Below the pieces are notes generated by a model. It was not told where the DNA came from. It searched no databases and worked only from the letters and a program-made list of their open reading frames with translations. Both the position numbers and the translations under genes were made by a program. Shown one piece after another: positions 127 through 13,918 of a DNA stretch of 32,711 bases (its first letter is position 1; each line of letters opens with the position of its first letter). Location of the stretch: the NCBI GenBank assembly GCA_023379605.1, contig JAMCQF010000050.1:1-32711 (forward strand), written 5' to 3'. This stretch comes from Actinomycetota bacterium (lineage in GTDB: Bacteria > Actinomycetota > Acidimicrobiia > Acidimicrobiales > JAMCQF01).

Positions 127-1650
127 TTGAGCACCACCCCGCTGCATTCCCCGCCTGCACCCCAGCCCGACCAGGCTCCGCCACCTTGGGCATCGCTGGC
201 GCCGTGGGCGGCACAGGTTCCCGAGTCCACCTCCGAGGAGGTGACAGCGGCTGTCGAGCGCGCCCGGGATGCCTCCATTGCCTGGGGAAACGCTAGCTTC
301 AAGGACAGGGCCCGTCACCTGAGGCATCTCCGCCATGCCCTGTCTAGACAGGCCGAGGAGATCGTCTCAGCCGTGGTGGGAGACACCGGCAAGATACCTG
401 CCGAAGCCCTATCTGGTTGGCCCGACCAGCGTTGCGAGCTGATCGCGTACTACGAGCGCCACGGCGAGCGCGCTCTGCAACCTCGCAAGGTCAACCCCGG
501 CCTCCTCATGGCTTACAAGTCTGCGGAGATCCGCTACGAACCGTTGGGGGTGGTGGGCGTGATCAGCCCTTGGAACTACCCGCTCGTGCTCTCGCTCGGA
601 CCTGTTGTGACCGCTCTTTTCGCAGGCAGCACAGTTGTCCTCAAGCCATCTGAGATAACCCCGCACGTCGGCCTTGAGGTAGGCAGGATCTTTGCTGAGC
701 TGGGTGAGGATGCTGGGAAGCACTCGGGGATACTCCAGGTTGTCACAGGTGCCGGAGCGGTGGGAGAGGCACTCGTGCGATCAGGAGTGGACAAGATCGC
801 CTTCACGGGCTCGGTCCGCTCCGGCCAGGCCGTGATGCGAGCAGCTGCCGATACCCTGACACCGGTCCTTTTGGAGCTGGGTGGGAAAGACCCAATGATC
901 GTGCTCTCCGATGCAGACTTAGAGCGCGCTGCGCACGGAGCGGTCTGGGGAGCATTCACCAATGCTGGCCAAACCTGTATGGCAGTAGAGCGAGTTTACG
1001 TCGAAGATCCAGCTTTTGACCCATTCTTAGAGCGTGTACTGGAGATCACCTCAAGGTTGCGCCAGGGTACAGGCACCGGCAGCGATCTCGGGGCTATCAC
1101 CTGGAAGCGCCAGCTGGAGGTGGTATTGCGTCACCTCGATGACGCGCTCTCCAAGGGAGCCAAGATCCTAACCGGAGGGCACAGGGTACAAGTGGGCGGG
1201 CGCGAGTCAATAGAGCCAACGGTGCTTGTGGACGTCGACCATTCCATGGCCGTGATGCGCGAGGAGACATTCGGGCCGCTCCTACCCATCATGAGGGTCC
1301 ACAGCGCCGACGAGGCACTCAAGCTGGCCAACGACTCCTCCTACGGGCTCAACTCTTCAGTTTGGGGAAAGAACCCCAGCTCCATAGAGAAGATCGTTGC
1401 GGGGCTAAAGGCAGGATCGGTGTGTGTGAACGACTGCATGATCTCCTATGCGATCCCGGGCCTTCCATTCGGCGGCATAGGACAGTCGGGGCTTGGAAGA
1501 ACCCATGGCATAGAGGGGCTCCGTGAGATGAGCCAGGTGAAGTCAGTTGCAAAGGACCGCCTTGGGCTCTCCAAGGAGCCGTACTGGATGCCACTGCCAT
1601 CGTGGAACGAGTCACTTGCCAGAGCAATCCTACGCCTACGCCACCGCTAG
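127..1650 (+). CDS. NAD(P)-dependent aldehyde dehydrogenase (ALDH superfamily)
   Basis: This soluble 507-residue enzyme is expected to oxidise an aldehyde to a carboxylate with NAD(P)+. The ALDH landmarks are all present: SPWNYP with the oxyanion Asn150, the ELGGKDP motif with general base Glu250, and NAGQTCM with catalytic Cys284. EETFGPLLP and the C-terminal PFGGIGQSGLGR segment also fit. The length is normal, with a Pro-rich N-terminal stretch of about 25 residues. The start is TTG, chosen because AGGAG (117-121) lies 5 nt upstream and no ATG precedes the conserved core. The substrate cannot be read from the sequence; the nearby acyl-CoA genes suggest medium or long aldehydes or a degradation intermediate, but that is inference. 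It converges on the next gene. Confidence 0.95.
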   Translation: MSTTPLHSPPAPQPDQAPPPWASLAPWAAQVPESTSEEVTAAVERARDASIAWGNASFKDRARHLRHLRHALSRQAEEIVSAVVGDTGKIPAEALSGWPDQRCELIAYYERHGERALQPRKVNPGLLMAYKSAEIRYEPLGVVGVISPWNYPLVLSLGPVVTALFAGSTVVLKPSEITPHVGLEVGRIFAELGEDAGKHSGILQVVTGAGAVGEALVRSGVDKIAFTGSVRSGQAVMRAAADTLTPVLLELGGKDPMIVLSDADLERAAHGAVWGAFTNAGQTCMAVERVYVEDPAFDPFLERVLEITSRLRQGTGTGSDLGAITWKRQLEVVLRHLDDALSKGAKILTGGHRVQVGGRESIEPTVLVDVDHSMAVMREETFGPLLPIMRVHSADEALKLANDSSYGLNSSVWGKNPSSIEKIVAGLKAGSVCVNDCMISYAIPGLPFGGIGQSGLGRTHGIEGLREMSQVKSVAKDRLGLSKEPYWMPLPSWNESLARAILRLRHR

Positions 1651-2775: not shown

Positions 2776-2791
2776 GACTGACTTGTCAGTC
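2776..2791. promoter_or_regulatory. Palindromic operator, copy 1 (TetR autoregulation)
   Basis: GACTGAC-TT-GTCAGTC is a perfect 7+2+7 inverted repeat 29 bp before the TetR start, overlapping a -35-like TTGTCA (2783-2788). Size and position fit a TetR-family operator. A second, slightly degenerate copy lies at 3664-3679. Confidence 0.7.
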
Positions 2792-2808
2792 TGTTCATCG
2801 CCCGGTGC

Positions 2809-2814
2809 TAGGCT
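2809..2814 (+). promoter_or_regulatory. Putative -10 (TAGGCT) of the TetR gene, leaderless
   Basis: TAGGCT lies 6 nt before the ATG at 2821. TTGTCA (2783-2788) is a -35 candidate with a long 20-nt spacer, and it lies inside the palindromic operator. There is no clear Shine-Dalgarno sequence, so the transcript probably begins at or next to the ATG. Confidence 0.5.
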
Positions 2815-2820
2815 GGGGAT

Positions 2821-3669
2821 ATGCCCTCACGGCAAGCCATGGGTCCCCAACCTCCGAGAATGCTTTCACCTGCTAGGCCAGAGAGCCAGTTCGGAAAGAC
2901 CGAAGATCCTGCTCGTAGGCAAGACGAGCAGGCTTCTAGCCGCGCCGCAAAGACCCGCGAGCCACCCCGGGCGGTGAAGCGGGCCATGAACGACGAAGAC
3001 AAAGAGCACAGGCGCACGGAGATCCTAAGTGCGGCCAAGGTGGTTTTCGCCACCAAGGGGTTCCATGCCACCACAATTGCAGACATTGCCAGACAGGCAA
3101 AGCTCTCCTATGGCTCAATCTACTGGTACTTCGACTCCAAGGACGGGCTCTTCCACACGCTCATGGAGGTTGAAGGAGAGGCACTTCGCGACCACATCAA
3201 CCAAGCCCTTGCCTCCACTCCTGCATCTGCGGGACCACAGGGCCCCTTCCGCGCCGCGGTTCAGGCAACCTTTGAGTTCTTCGAGGCCGACAAGGCACTG
3301 GTCAAGCTGCTCTTTAGAGACTCCTATGCCCTGGGGGACAGGTTCGAAAAGCACCTTTTCGGCATCTATGAGGAGTTCATCTCAGATATCGAGGTCATGG
3401 TCAGATCAGGTCAGAAGGCTGGCATCATCGCCGATTACCCTCCACGCATGGTCGCCTTCGCCATCGCGGCGCTCATTGGCCAGATCGCCCACCGGCGCTT
3501 GGTGACCGACGATGGGCTGGAAGCAGGCGTTGTTGCCGAGCTCGTGGTATCGCTGCTCTTGAACGGCCTGCTCCCAAGGGACAGGACATCCTTTAGTGAT
3601 ATGTCAGCCGGCCTCACTGGAGCAGGTGTTTTCCCACGCCCCAAGGTGGGACAAGAGATCCTCGATTGA
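2821..3669 (+). CDS. TetR/AcrR-family transcriptional regulator
   Basis: This is a 282-residue DNA-binding regulator. The TetR N-terminal domain runs from about residue 64 (RRTEILSAAKVVFATKGF) through the helix-turn-helix TTIADIARQAKLSYGSIYWYF to about 110. The remainder is an all-helical ligand-binding and dimerisation domain of ordinary length. A basic, Pro-rich extension of about 55 residues precedes the HTH. ATG 2986 (MNDEDKEHRR) would give a family-typical length but has no good ribosome site, whereas ATG 2821 has a -10-like TAGGCT 6 nt upstream, so I keep the long form as a leaderless start. Matching palindromes at 2776-2791 and 3664-3679 suggest it represses itself and the following acyl-CoA operon. 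The ligand may be an acyl-CoA, by analogy with TetR repressors of fatty-acid degradation. Confidence 0.9.
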   Translation: MPSRQAMGPQPPRMLSPARPESQFGKTEDPARRQDEQASSRAAKTREPPRAVKRAMNDEDKEHRRTEILSAAKVVFATKGFHATTIADIARQAKLSYGSIYWYFDSKDGLFHTLMEVEGEALRDHINQALASTPASAGPQGPFRAAVQATFEFFEADKALVKLLFRDSYALGDRFEKHLFGIYEEFISDIEVMVRSGQKAGIIADYPPRMVAFAIAALIGQIAHRRLVTDDGLEAGVVAELVVSLLLNGLLPRDRTSFSDMSAGLTGAGVFPRPKVGQEILD

Positions 3670-3679
3670 TAGATCAGTC
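3664..3679. promoter_or_regulatory. Palindromic operator, copy 2 (on the thiolase-like operon promoter)
   Basis: GATTGAT-AG-ATCAGTC matches copy 1 (GACTGAC-TT-GTCAGTC) at 11 of 16 positions; both spacer bases and three transition sites (C/T, C/T, G/A) differ, and the arms still pair with one mismatch. It overlaps the TetR stop codon and contains most of the -35 TTGATA (3666-3671). Confidence 0.6.
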
Positions 3680-3694
3680 AGTAGCAGTTAACCT
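3666..3694 (+). promoter_or_regulatory. Sigma-70-type promoter of the thiolase-like/enoyl-CoA hydratase operon
   Basis: TTGATA (3666-3671), a 17-nt spacer and TAACCT (3689-3694) form a good housekeeping promoter, 5 of 6 at -35 with the ideal spacing. The -10 ends 6 nt before the ATG at 3701, which lacks a Shine-Dalgarno sequence, so the mRNA is probably leaderless. The -35 is buried in operator copy 2. Confidence 0.65.
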
Positions 3695-3700
3695 CTTGGG

Positions 3701-5203
3701 ATGGGCGACGAAGAAAGAATCCCCGTGATTCTTGCAACCGGGCAGGCAATTGAACGCGACAGCTTGGTGACCGCTTTGGACATGGCCGAGAGAGCCTCCT
3801 CCGCAGCCCTTTCCACCCTGGGCTCCATCAGTTTCTCAATTGAGCAGGTGTCGGTCGTGAACATCCTCTCTCCAGGCGGCCCAGCGCCGGCCTCTGCTCT
3901 GGCTAAGCGGCTCGGCCTCTCCCCCACCAGATGCGAGGTCACAACCATAGGGGGCAACTCCCCCCAGTGGTTGGTCAATCGTGCGGCCTCGGCAATAGCC
4001 TCAGGGCGCCTTGGCGCTGCTCTTATCGCTGGGGGCGAGGCTATGCGCTCGCTCAAAGCTGGCGGTAGCCGCACCGGAGCGCCGGATTCCTGGGATGGCA
4101 AGGATCCTGTCGTAGGCGAGGATCGTCCCGGGGTGGGAGCGGCCGAGAGCGCGATCGGTCTTATGCTGCCAGCCCACATCTACCCTATGTTCGAGAGCGC
4201 TCTCGCAGCTCGGGCTGGAAGGGACTTCCAGGCCCAGCGCGATCGCATTGGTGCTCTGCTGTCGCCATTTAGCGAAGTGGCAGCGAAGAATGCCTTCGCC
4301 TGGTTCCCCACCGCTCGCTCTGCTCATGAGATCGCAGAGCCATCGCCTTCGAATCGCTTAGTGGCTGAGCCGTACACAAAGCTCATGTCCGCCTTTCTTG
4401 GAAGCGATCATGGAGCTGCGGTGCTCGTCACCTCACTTGCTGCAGCCAGAAGAGCGCGCGCCAGCTCCCAAGCGGTCTTTGTGTGGTCGGGTGCGGATGC
4501 AACCGACGTCTGGGACCCCTCAGCAAGGCCAGATCCAGCCATGTCGCCCGCAATCGCAGCGGCAGGCCAAGCGGCCTTGGAGGCTGGCGGGATCGCAGTT
4601 GACGACGTAGGGATCTTCGACCTCTACTCCTGCTTTCCCTCTGCCATCGAGCTAGCCATGGAAGCTCTGGGCATTGACTACACAGATGACCGGCCGCTCA
4701 CGGTGACTGGAGGGCTTGCCTACTTTGGGGGTCCAGGCAACAACTACACCACGCACGCCATTGCCTCTATGGCAGGGGCAATCTTAAACGGCACTGGGTC
4801 CTCACAGAATCACCTCGGAGGCGGGAACCTCGGGTTGGTCTCTGCTCTGGGCTGGTATGCGACAAAGCACTCCATAGGCATATACGGCGACAAGCCTCCG
4901 CCGGAGGGCTTTCGCATGGGGGACACCCGCAAGGCTCAGCTTGCAATTGACAGCTCTGCGGTGAACGTGCTTCCCGGCTTTGACGAGGGTACTTTTGAGC
5001 AGGCGACAGTTGTGGCATCGACGGTGGTCTACAACAGGGATGGGCTGGCTCAGGCAGCTCCTGTGATCGCCAGGACCGATAGCGGCTGCCATGTGGTTGC
5101 CAGGGCAGCACCTGACGAGCTCGCTGCCATGCCAGGCCGCAATCTCGTAGGAACCAGGCTGTGGCTTTCGGGACGCCCGCCGGAGTACCGTCTCGCACAG
5201 TGA
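3701..5203 (+). CDS. Thiolase-like protein type 1 (TLP1-like, SCP2-thiolase relative)
   Basis: This 500-residue thiolase-fold protein has an extra C-terminal domain (about residues 415-495) of the kind found in mycobacterial TLP1. Canonical catalytic residues are altered. The N-terminal Cys-x-Ser-Gly nucleophile loop reads IGGNSPQ (G84-Q89). The usual GHP motif reads GGP within YFGGPGNN. The C-terminal Cys motif is replaced by NHLGGGNLG (His371). A Cys is kept in DLYSCFPSA (Cys311), and His352 lies in NNYTTHAIA. It therefore probably does not perform ordinary thiolytic cleavage; acyl-CoA binding, or another C-C lyase role as in thiolase-fold aldolases, is possible. It heads an operon with the enoyl-CoA hydratase and is probably controlled by the upstream TetR regulator. 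Confidence 0.85.
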   Translation: MGDEERIPVILATGQAIERDSLVTALDMAERASSAALSTLGSISFSIEQVSVVNILSPGGPAPASALAKRLGLSPTRCEVTTIGGNSPQWLVNRAASAIASGRLGAALIAGGEAMRSLKAGGSRTGAPDSWDGKDPVVGEDRPGVGAAESAIGLMLPAHIYPMFESALAARAGRDFQAQRDRIGALLSPFSEVAAKNAFAWFPTARSAHEIAEPSPSNRLVAEPYTKLMSAFLGSDHGAAVLVTSLAAARRARASSQAVFVWSGADATDVWDPSARPDPAMSPAIAAAGQAALEAGGIAVDDVGIFDLYSCFPSAIELAMEALGIDYTDDRPLTVTGGLAYFGGPGNNYTTHAIASMAGAILNGTGSSQNHLGGGNLGLVSALGWYATKHSIGIYGDKPPPEGFRMGDTRKAQLAIDSSAVNVLPGFDEGTFEQATVVASTVVYNRDGLAQAAPVIARTDSGCHVVARAAPDELAAMPGRNLVGTRLWLSGRPPEYRLAQ

Positions 5204-5254: not shown

Positions 5255-6022
5255 ATGTCAGTAGAGCGGGCACGCCACGGCAAGACAGAGGTCTTGACAA
5301 TCAACCGGCCCGAAGCGCGCAACGCAATAGACGGGGCCACATCTCTGGCGCTTTCCAAGGCATTCGACGATCTGGAGCATGACCGCGACGTCTGGGCGGT
5401 CATCCTTACAGGAGCTGGGAGCAAAGCCTTCTCCGCCGGCATGGACTTGAAGGCTTTCGCCAGCGGTGAGGTGGGATCGATCGCCGGGGCAAAGGGGGGC
5501 TTTGCCGGCATAACCCAGAGAGACTTTCCCAAGCCGCTCATCGCCGCTGTCAATGGCTCAGCACTGGCGGGAGGATGCGAGATCATGCTCAGCTGCGATC
5601 TCGTGGTGGCAGCTGAGCATGCAACCTTTGGAATCCCAGAGGTGAAGCGTGGGCTCATAGCGGGTGCAGGTGGGCTCATCAGGCTCCCCAAGCGCCTCCC
5701 GTTGCCAATTGCCCTGGAGCTGGCCCTCACCGGCGACCCGATAGACGCATCCAGGGCCTTGGCTCTGGGGCTTGTGAACAAGGTCGTTCCCGCAGACCAA
5801 GTGCTACAGGAGGCTCTGGTCTTGGCCGAGCGCATCTGCGAGAACGCCCCACTGGCAGTCAGGGCCTCCAAGCGGGTCGTGACAAAAGCAGCTGGAAGCG
5901 CCGAGGAGGACGGGTGGAAGCTCAATGCAGCAGCGGTGAACGAGGTCTTCTCCTCTCCAGATGCCATGGAGGGACCCGTAGCCTTTGCGGAGAAGCGCAA
6001 GCCCAACTGGACCGGAGTTTGA
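5255..6022 (+). CDS. Enoyl-CoA hydratase/isomerase (crotonase family)
   Basis: This 255-residue crotonase-fold enzyme has the usual length. It carries the CoA/oxyanion loop GSKAFSAGMDLKAF at about residues 55-68, and LAGGCEIMLSCDLVVAAEHATFGIPEV with both hydratase glutamates present (Glu109 in GGCE, Glu129 in IPEV). With both residues, syn-addition of water to a 2-enoyl-CoA is the expected reaction, in beta-oxidation or a related acid-degradation route. The ATG is set by a strong AGGAGG (5241-5246) 8 nt upstream. It follows the TLP1 gene after 51 nt with a stem-loop between them, so the two are probably cotranscribed under TetR control. The chain length of its substrate is unknown. Confidence 0.93.
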   Translation: MSVERARHGKTEVLTINRPEARNAIDGATSLALSKAFDDLEHDRDVWAVILTGAGSKAFSAGMDLKAFASGEVGSIAGAKGGFAGITQRDFPKPLIAAVNGSALAGGCEIMLSCDLVVAAEHATFGIPEVKRGLIAGAGGLIRLPKRLPLPIALELALTGDPIDASRALALGLVNKVVPADQVLQEALVLAERICENAPLAVRASKRVVTKAAGSAEEDGWKLNAAAVNEVFSSPDAMEGPVAFAEKRKPNWTGV

Positions 6023-11215: not shown

Positions 11216-13918
11216 ATGGCGAAGGACAGTTTTGGTGCGCGGTCGCGCATTGTGGTGGACGGGGCGGAGCACGACTACTACAGCTTGGACGCGCTCTCTT
11301 CCTTCCAGGACATCTCGCGCTTGCCGTTTGCCATAAAGGTACTGCTCGAGAACCTACTGCGCCATGAGGATGGGGTGGCTGTGACAGCTGCTGACGTTGA
11401 GGCATTGGCTGGATGGGGACCTCACCTAAGCGGGAGGAGGGAGATAATGTTCTCCCCGGCCAGGGTACTGATGCAGGACTTCACCGGGGTCCCCGCCGTA
11501 GTGGACCTGGCTGCAATGCGAGATGCCATGGCTGCAATAGGTGGTAAGCCCTCCCAGATAAACCCTCTGGTGCCGGTGGATCTCGTGATCGATCACTCCG
11601 TGATAGCCGATCTCTCCGGCACTCCCGATGCCTTTTCCCGCAACGCAGCGCTTGAGTTGAGCCGCAACCGTGAGCGCTACGAACTGCTCAAGTGGGCACA
11701 GAGCGCCTTCGAGGGGTTCTCTGTAGTGCCACCTGACACTGGGATCTGCCACCAGGTGAACCTTGAGTACCTGGCCCAAGTGGTTTTCACAGGCTCAGAT
11801 GGCCTCGTCTATCCCGACACCGTTGTGGGCACTGACTCCCATACGACCATGGTCAACGGGCTTGGTGTGCTCGGCTGGGGTGTGGGCGGCATCGAAGCCG
11901 AGGCTGTGATGCTGGGTCAGCCCATGCCCATGCTGATACCACCGGTGGTGGGTCTTGAGCTAACCGGTGAGCTGCCGGCGGGGGCAACGGCCACTGACCT
12001 CGTTCTTACCATAACTGAGCTGCTCCGCTCCCACGGAGTGGTGGGAAAGCTTGTGGAGGTCTACGGCGAAGGGATCTCCACCCTGCCACTCGAGAACCGC
12101 GCCACCATAGGAAACATGTCCCCAGAGTACGGGGCCACCTGCGCTATATTTCCCATAGACGTAGAGACCCTCCGCTACCTCCGTCTCACCGGGCGCGACG
12201 AGCACCAGATAAAGCTGGTCGAGGCCTACGCCAAAGAGCAGGGTCTGTTCCACGAGCCATCCAGCTCCGCTGCCTACTCCGAGGTCGTCCGGCTGGATCT
12301 TGCCACCGTGGAGCCGAGCATTGCCGGGCCGTCGAGACCACAGGATCGAGTACCGCTGGCAAGTGCCAAGCAGGCATTTCGCGCATCGCTTGCCAAGATA
12401 TCCTCTTCCAACCCAAAGAGCGGGCCTTACCTTGAAGGCGCTGCCACACCGGCACCTCTGCCTCCCAACGGTTCAGGCGATTCTGGCGCAGCTTCCACAG
12501 CCAGGCAGGTACGCGACGGAGATGTCGTAATAGCGGCGATCACGAGCTGCACCAATACCTCCAATCCTCAAGTCATGATAGCAGCCGGGCTGCTGGCAGA
12601 GAAAGCCGTGGCCAGAGGGCTTCGCTCCAAGGAGTGGGTGAAGACTTCCTTGGCACCAGGTTCCAAAGTGGTCACCGAGTACTTAGACAGAGCTGGTCTA
12701 ACCTCACCACTCGAAAAGCTCGGCTTTAACCTGGTTGGGTACGGATGCACGACCTGCATAGGCAACTCCGGCCCTCTGCTTGACGGCATTGCCCAGGAGG
12801 TAAGTGATAGGGATCTGGCTGTCTGTGCCGTCCTGTCCGGTAACCGCAACTTCGAGGGGCGGATACATCCATCAGTCAAGATGAACTATCTAGCATCCCC
12901 ACCATTGGTAGTTGCTTACGCTCTGGCAGGGACGATGGACATAGATCTTGCGACCGAGCCACTCGGGACCGCCAGCGACGGACAGGCCGTGTACCTCTCC
13001 GATCTTTGGCCCACACCGGCAGAGGTTATAGAGGCAGCACGGTCTGCTATCCGCCCAGAGATGTTCGCCGAGACATACTCCAAGGCGTTCCAGGGCGACG
13101 AGAGCTGGGCAGCCCTGGGGGTCCCTTCAGGTGAGTCCTTTAGCTGGGACGAGGCTTCCACCTATGTTAGAAAGCCACCATTCTTTGACTCCATGACCAT
13201 CGAGGAGCCTCCTCTTGCTCCGATACATGCAGCAAGAGTGCTCGCGCTGCTTGGCGACAGCGTCACCACAGACCACATAAGCCCGGCTGGCTCCATCCCA
13301 CAAGGAGGTCCAGCCGGGCTGTACCTCCTGGGCAAAGGGGTAGCCAGGGCGGACTTCAACTCGTTCGGCTCCCGCCGTGGAAACCATGAGGTCATGATCC
13401 GCGGCACGTTCGCCAACATTCGCCTGAGGAACCTCCTTGCCCCACAGACAGAGGGAGGATGGACCCGCCACATGCCAAGCGGCGAGGTCATGACCATATT
13501 CGATGCCGCCACACGCTACAGGAGTGAGGGGGTGCCGCTCATCGTCCTGGCCGGAAAAGAGTACGGGTCAGGATCATCTCGCGACTGGGCGGCCAAGGGC
13601 ACTGTCCTGCTTGGAGTAAGGGCAGTGATCGCTCAAAGCTTCGAGCGGATCCACCGCTCCAACCTCATAGGAATGGGAGTGCTTCCCATCGAGCTCATCG
13701 GCGGAGCCACCGCCGCCTCCTTGGGGCTGACCGGCGAGGAAACCTACGACATAGCTGGCATCGAGAGCCTTGCTGAAGGCGAGCTCCCCGAGACAATAAC
13801 GGTTTTGGCAGATGGCAATCCCCTGCCCGTAAAGCTCAGGATAGACACGCCACGTGAGGCCGAGTACTACCGCAACGGGGGCATCCTTCCCTACGTTCTG
13901 CGCCAGCTGCGTAGCTAG
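11216..13918 (+). CDS. acn: Aconitate hydratase (AcnA type)
   Basis: This 900-residue TCA-cycle enzyme interconverts citrate and isocitrate. The [4Fe-4S] ligands are Cys445 (TSCTNTSNP), Cys511 and Cys514 ([13 protein letters not shown]). Other family marks include [21 protein letters not shown], the [16 protein letters not shown] stretch, and the C-terminal swivel domain with [16 protein letters not shown]. Length and domain order are those of AcnA/IRP1-type aconitases. The start is ATG 11216, chosen because AAAGGA (11205-11210) lies 5 nt upstream; longer in-frame forms begin in non-conserved sequence. It stands alone after ctaF (139-nt gap) and is convergent with qcrB. Citrate synthase is also in this window, at 30279-31547. 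Confidence 0.97.

Follow-up and report, generated by a model that had tools for sequence, protein, structure and literature searches.

Bacillus FadR recognizes the operator TGAATGA-N4-TCATTCA. It regulates beta-oxidation and responds to acyl-CoA (PMC6449355). Azoarcus MbdR, the regulator of the 3-methylbenzoate pathway, is a repressor induced by a CoA thioester, and its operators lie over the -35/-10 elements, one of them before its own gene (PMC4424350). For M. tuberculosis FasR, structure titles record a structure with C20-CoA. These proteins are the closest described matches to a 282-aa TetR-family regulator encoded at 2821..3669 (+) in the window, by which we mean the whole 32,711-nucleotide stretch of Actinomycetota DNA analyzed here. 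The N-terminal HTH places the protein in the TetR family (PF00440, E 4e-18; 65.3 bits against a gathering score of 24), and its C-terminal part gave weak profile matches only. The predicted model showed the all-helical TetR fold (10 helices, mean pLDDT 76.7), with FadR and FasR as top fold matches.

Each of the three differs from the window TetR in some respect. FadR was the first structural match (3whb, TMt 0.88), yet identity in the structural alignment was 18%, and its operator would have A at the third base, where the window motif has C or T. FasR was the second (6o6p, 24% identity) and gave the best NCBIfam score, but the FasR model is named an activator, whereas the targets of the window TetR look catabolic. 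MbdR scored highest by sequence among proteins of solved structure (4uds, E 1.8e-13) and differs in operator, ATACN10GTAT, and in pathway. FasR and FadR were the nearest NCBIfam models, with scores below the equivalog cut-offs (62 bits vs 330 for NF053731 and 51.4 vs 200 for NF053878); KstR scored 23.6 bits against a cut-off of 280 (NF033703). Since FadR, FasR and MbdR all bind CoA thioesters, the ligand of the window TetR would be expected to belong to the same class. Among orthologues 46-76% identical to it, the sequence YGSxYWYFxSKD in the recognition-helix region is nearly invariant.

A sequence-only reading of this DNA had described two matching palindromes, and we found both. Predicted operator 1, GACTGACTTGTCAGTC, occupies 2776..2791, 5' of the TetR gene, as a candidate autoregulatory site and is a perfect 7-2-7 palindrome; predicted operator 2, GATTGATAGATCAGTC, occupies 3664..3679 at the thiolase promoter and carries one arm mismatch. 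Both match the motif GAYTGAYNNRTCARTC, for which a first-order Markov estimate gives 0.0015 expected matches in the window against the 2 observed. Their arms differ at positions 3, 7 and 10, all three being transitions as had been claimed. The TetR ATG lies 29 bases past the end of site 1 and the thiolase ATG 21 bases past the end of site 2. The promoter TTGATA-N17-TAACCT (3666..3694, +), which the same reading had placed on the second palindrome, was confirmed: the -35 TTGATA (3666-3671) falls inside operator 2, followed by a 17-base spacer, TAACCT (3689-3694) and, 6 bases on, the ATG at 3701. The reported overlap with the regulator's stop codon also held, with TGA at 3667-3669 within site 2. 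At the TetR promoter, a putative -10 element TAGGCT (2809..2814, +) lies 17 bases 3' of operator 1 and 6 bases 5' of the ATG, so placed that the TetR transcript may be leaderless. TANNNT close upstream of the TetR start is seen in relatives too.

Downstream of the regulator are a 500-aa thiolase-like protein of the PRK08257 acetyl-CoA acetyltransferase type (3701..5203, +; NF006104, E 2e-133, below the curated cut-off) and a 255-aa enoyl-CoA hydratase of the crotonase type (5255..6022, +; PF00378, E 5e-61; NF006100, above cut-off). Upstream, an aldehyde dehydrogenase (127..1650, +; PF00171, E 7e-128) is also syntenic with the TetR gene in relatives and is a possible pathway partner of the locus; we found no operator of its own within the window. 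Between these two genes, a 114-aa protein (2329-2673, +) gave no Pfam or NCBIfam match and is conserved at 51-63% in many relatives in the same position.

Scanning the 2.5-Mb source genome for GAYTGAYNNRTCARTC returned 8 matches against 0.115 expected by a first-order Markov estimate (Poisson p about 7e-13), and the reversed motif, used as a control, gave 0. All eight sites lie 5' of catabolic-type genes, and not at the random loci that would have counted against a regulon. The perfect matches precede the TetR gene, the thiolase-enoyl-CoA hydratase pair, an acyl-CoA dehydrogenase, an LLM oxidoreductase together with a FadD-type ligase gene, a P450, and FAD monooxygenase-like, MiaE-like and NMO-like genes. 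Three of these have divergent partners: a PaaI-like gene opposite the acyl-CoA dehydrogenase, GH1 opposite the MiaE-like gene and GH31 opposite the NMO-like gene. To reach weaker sites, the pattern was also run allowing up to one mismatch, which gave 14 matches vs 2 in the control. One of the one-mismatch sites, a ninth site, lies 5' of an alcohol dehydrogenase gene and is followed by N10, TAAGCT, N6 and ATG, the geometry seen at the thiolase gene. Two others (C139:29127 and C170:14266) fall within predicted ORFs and look like chance matches. Thus the regulon proposed from the sequence, a regulator with its thiolase/hydratase operon, is supported by the sites and by the comparison with relatives but was drawn too small, as it comprises at least eight to nine sites. 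The GH1, GH31 and MiaE-like targets fit poorly with a beta-oxidation theme. In relatives, GH1 and GH31 genes recurrently adjoin operators, divergent to other targets (L016 5015, L017 10332, L144 8879, L155 3124).

The thiolase promoter has a geometry that recurs elsewhere. In the window, in L137 of the same family and in L151, the thiolase gene is preceded by an operator, 9 bases, TANNNT and a start codon 6-8 bases on, and the window and L137 promoters can be aligned from the operator onward. In L137 and L151 the thiolase gene keeps this promoter at a distance from TetR, which argues that site 2 belongs, as an operator, to a promoter of the thiolase gene itself. The overlap with the TetR stop codon then follows from the placement of this promoter directly behind the regulator gene: the conserved TetR domain stops near a GLLPR motif, and an unconserved tail of ~30 aa runs on into operator 2. 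In most relatives with adjacent genes, thiolase directly follows TetR and is probably carried on its transcript; no second site between the two genes is conserved in these relatives, so the paired-operator arrangement is lineage-specific.

A distal arm of the form GATTGAY contains TTGAY, 17 bp from TANNNT. Outside Mycobacterium, this 17-bp geometry was found at 6/19 sites with a GAT arm vs 0/22 with a GAC arm, and in mycobacterial NMO promoters TANNNT lies 9 or 10 bases from the operator in 28/30. At TetR's own promoters the distance from operator to TANNNT is variable, from 6 to 21. An asymmetry of the arms, T in the -35 arm, was considered as a general rule and set aside, being clear in Mycobacterium and at thiolase, ADH and NMO promoters but not at TetR's own sites. 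The flanks of 53 distinct sites show weak added symmetry, roughly YT 5' of the 16-mer.

TetR orthologues were found in Acidimicrobiales MAGs and in Mycobacterium, with the motif at most loci. We sampled 148 genomes of the order and 149 Mycobacterium genomes. Within the order, perfect sites were present in 16/23 genomes with TetR vs 9/125 without (Fisher p=3e-10), and within Mycobacterium in 20/20 vs 18/129 (p=1e-14), p-values that overstate independence because the genomes share ancestry. The remaining 7/23 genomes of the order have a TetR match and no perfect site, so either the motif may have drifted or some of these matches may not be orthologues. The targets that recur over relatives are ADH, CMD-like, PaaI, ACAD, NMO, thiolase, LLM/FadD and MiaE-like genes.

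In mycobacterial NMO promoters, operator decay can be followed as a natural experiment. We compared 30 of these promoters, 15 from genomes with TetR and 15 from genomes without. The palindrome was perfect in 15/15 vs 2/15 (p=2e-6), so that two mycobacterial genomes retain a perfect NMO site in the absence of TetR. Under a looser criterion of up to one mismatch the counts were 15/15 vs 11/15 (p=0.10, not significant), and the contrast emerges with perfect sites. Of the 13 TetR-less promoters that could be aligned, 11 had an intact left (-35) arm and 2 an intact right arm, the changes being of several kinds; several of these species have one altered arm in common, so the independent losses are fewer than the count. 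Without the regulator, the arm shared with the -35 element thus mostly persists and the other does not. We consider it likely that Acidimicrobiales and mycobacteria share a conserved, previously undescribed actinobacterial regulon to which the uncharacterised Rv1534 would also belong, that one half-site of its operator serves at the same time as the -35 hexamer, and that after loss of the repressor the -35 arm survives as the repressor-only arm decays.

Taken together, the sites, target genes, co-occurrence and promoter geometry make it highly probable that the window TetR represses its own gene along with a regulon for lipid/alcohol oxidation, through predicted operators on the -35 region, and is probably released by an acyl-CoA. 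A TetR homodimer would bind GAYTGAYNNRTCARTC. On operator 1 it would cover the -35 region of the TetR promoter; on operator 2 it would occupy the -35 hexamer TTGATA that serves the thiolase-enoyl-CoA hydratase pair, blocking RNA polymerase. The same sites would govern scattered genes of peripheral oxidation and beta-oxidation, namely those for acyl-CoA dehydrogenase, LLM oxidoreductase with FadD ligase, P450, alcohol dehydrogenase, and the NMO-like, FAD monooxygenase-like and MiaE-like proteins. An acyl-CoA intermediate of the pathway would probably release the repressor.

Repression by the window TetR has to be weighed against three other explanations. The regulator could be an activator or act in both ways, as the name of its highest-scoring NCBIfam model, FasR, might suggest; we regard this as improbable, since an operator over the -35 hexamer itself, as at the thiolase, ADH and NMO promoters, is expected to exclude RNA polymerase. 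It is less probable again that the palindromes serve another TetR paralogue and lie beside the window TetR incidentally. First-look candidates do suggest several TetR-like genes per genome, and the nine genomes of the order with perfect sites and without this TetR would fit such a paralogue. However, motif presence tracks the orthologue of the window TetR in two clades, the site stands immediately 5' of the orthologous TetR gene in many relatives, and one and the same mycobacterial promoter is perfect with TetR and mostly decayed without it.

Slightly less probable still is that only operator 1 functions, operator 2 being a chance likeness where the TetR coding sequence ends, with thiolase-enoyl-CoA hydratase expressed by read-through from the TetR promoter. 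The absence of a second site from most relatives with adjacent TetR and thiolase genes speaks for this. Against it, only ~9e-5 matches to the motif are expected within 1 kb on each side, and the operator-N9-TANNNT-start promoters of L137 and L151 serve thiolase genes away from TetR. Repression through both operators of the window is therefore the reading we retain, and we take the whole to be a genuine TetR regulon of an ordinary type, apparently not described before.

The genes neighbouring the mycobacterial regulator, ADH, CMD-like, PaaI and NMO, are presumably Rv1530-Rv1533 by the H37Rv gene order. The orthologous TetR genes stand 5' of an M-box riboswitch (L053 6821-6990, L045 6932-7101, L060 10144-10314), with ileS also present in L053. 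In M. tuberculosis the published order is Rv1534 - M-box - Rv1535 - ileS (PMC3207917). Because these orders match, the mycobacterial orthologues probably occupy the Rv1534 position, and M. tuberculosis Rv1534 itself is probably a member of the group. A 2015 survey listed the function of Rv1534 as without experimental evidence (PMC4482099). Our literature search found no described function or operator for Rv1534, and searches on the operator strings and on Rv1530-Rv1534 as a group returned nothing relevant. A TetR group without a described function in the literature searched now has an operator motif and a list of targets, and, with Rv1534 probably among its members, the targets and ligand of that protein become directly testable.

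At some loci, two perfect operators are separated by 22-36 bases (L066, 5661 and 5697; L065, 4750 and 4783; L171, 4877 and 4899), a spacing that suggests tandem binding of dimers. L171 comes from a genome in which TetR was not found. In L070, from an Acidimicrobiia MAG, two TetR copies of the group lie on one contig, at 5408-5947 and 11304-11897.
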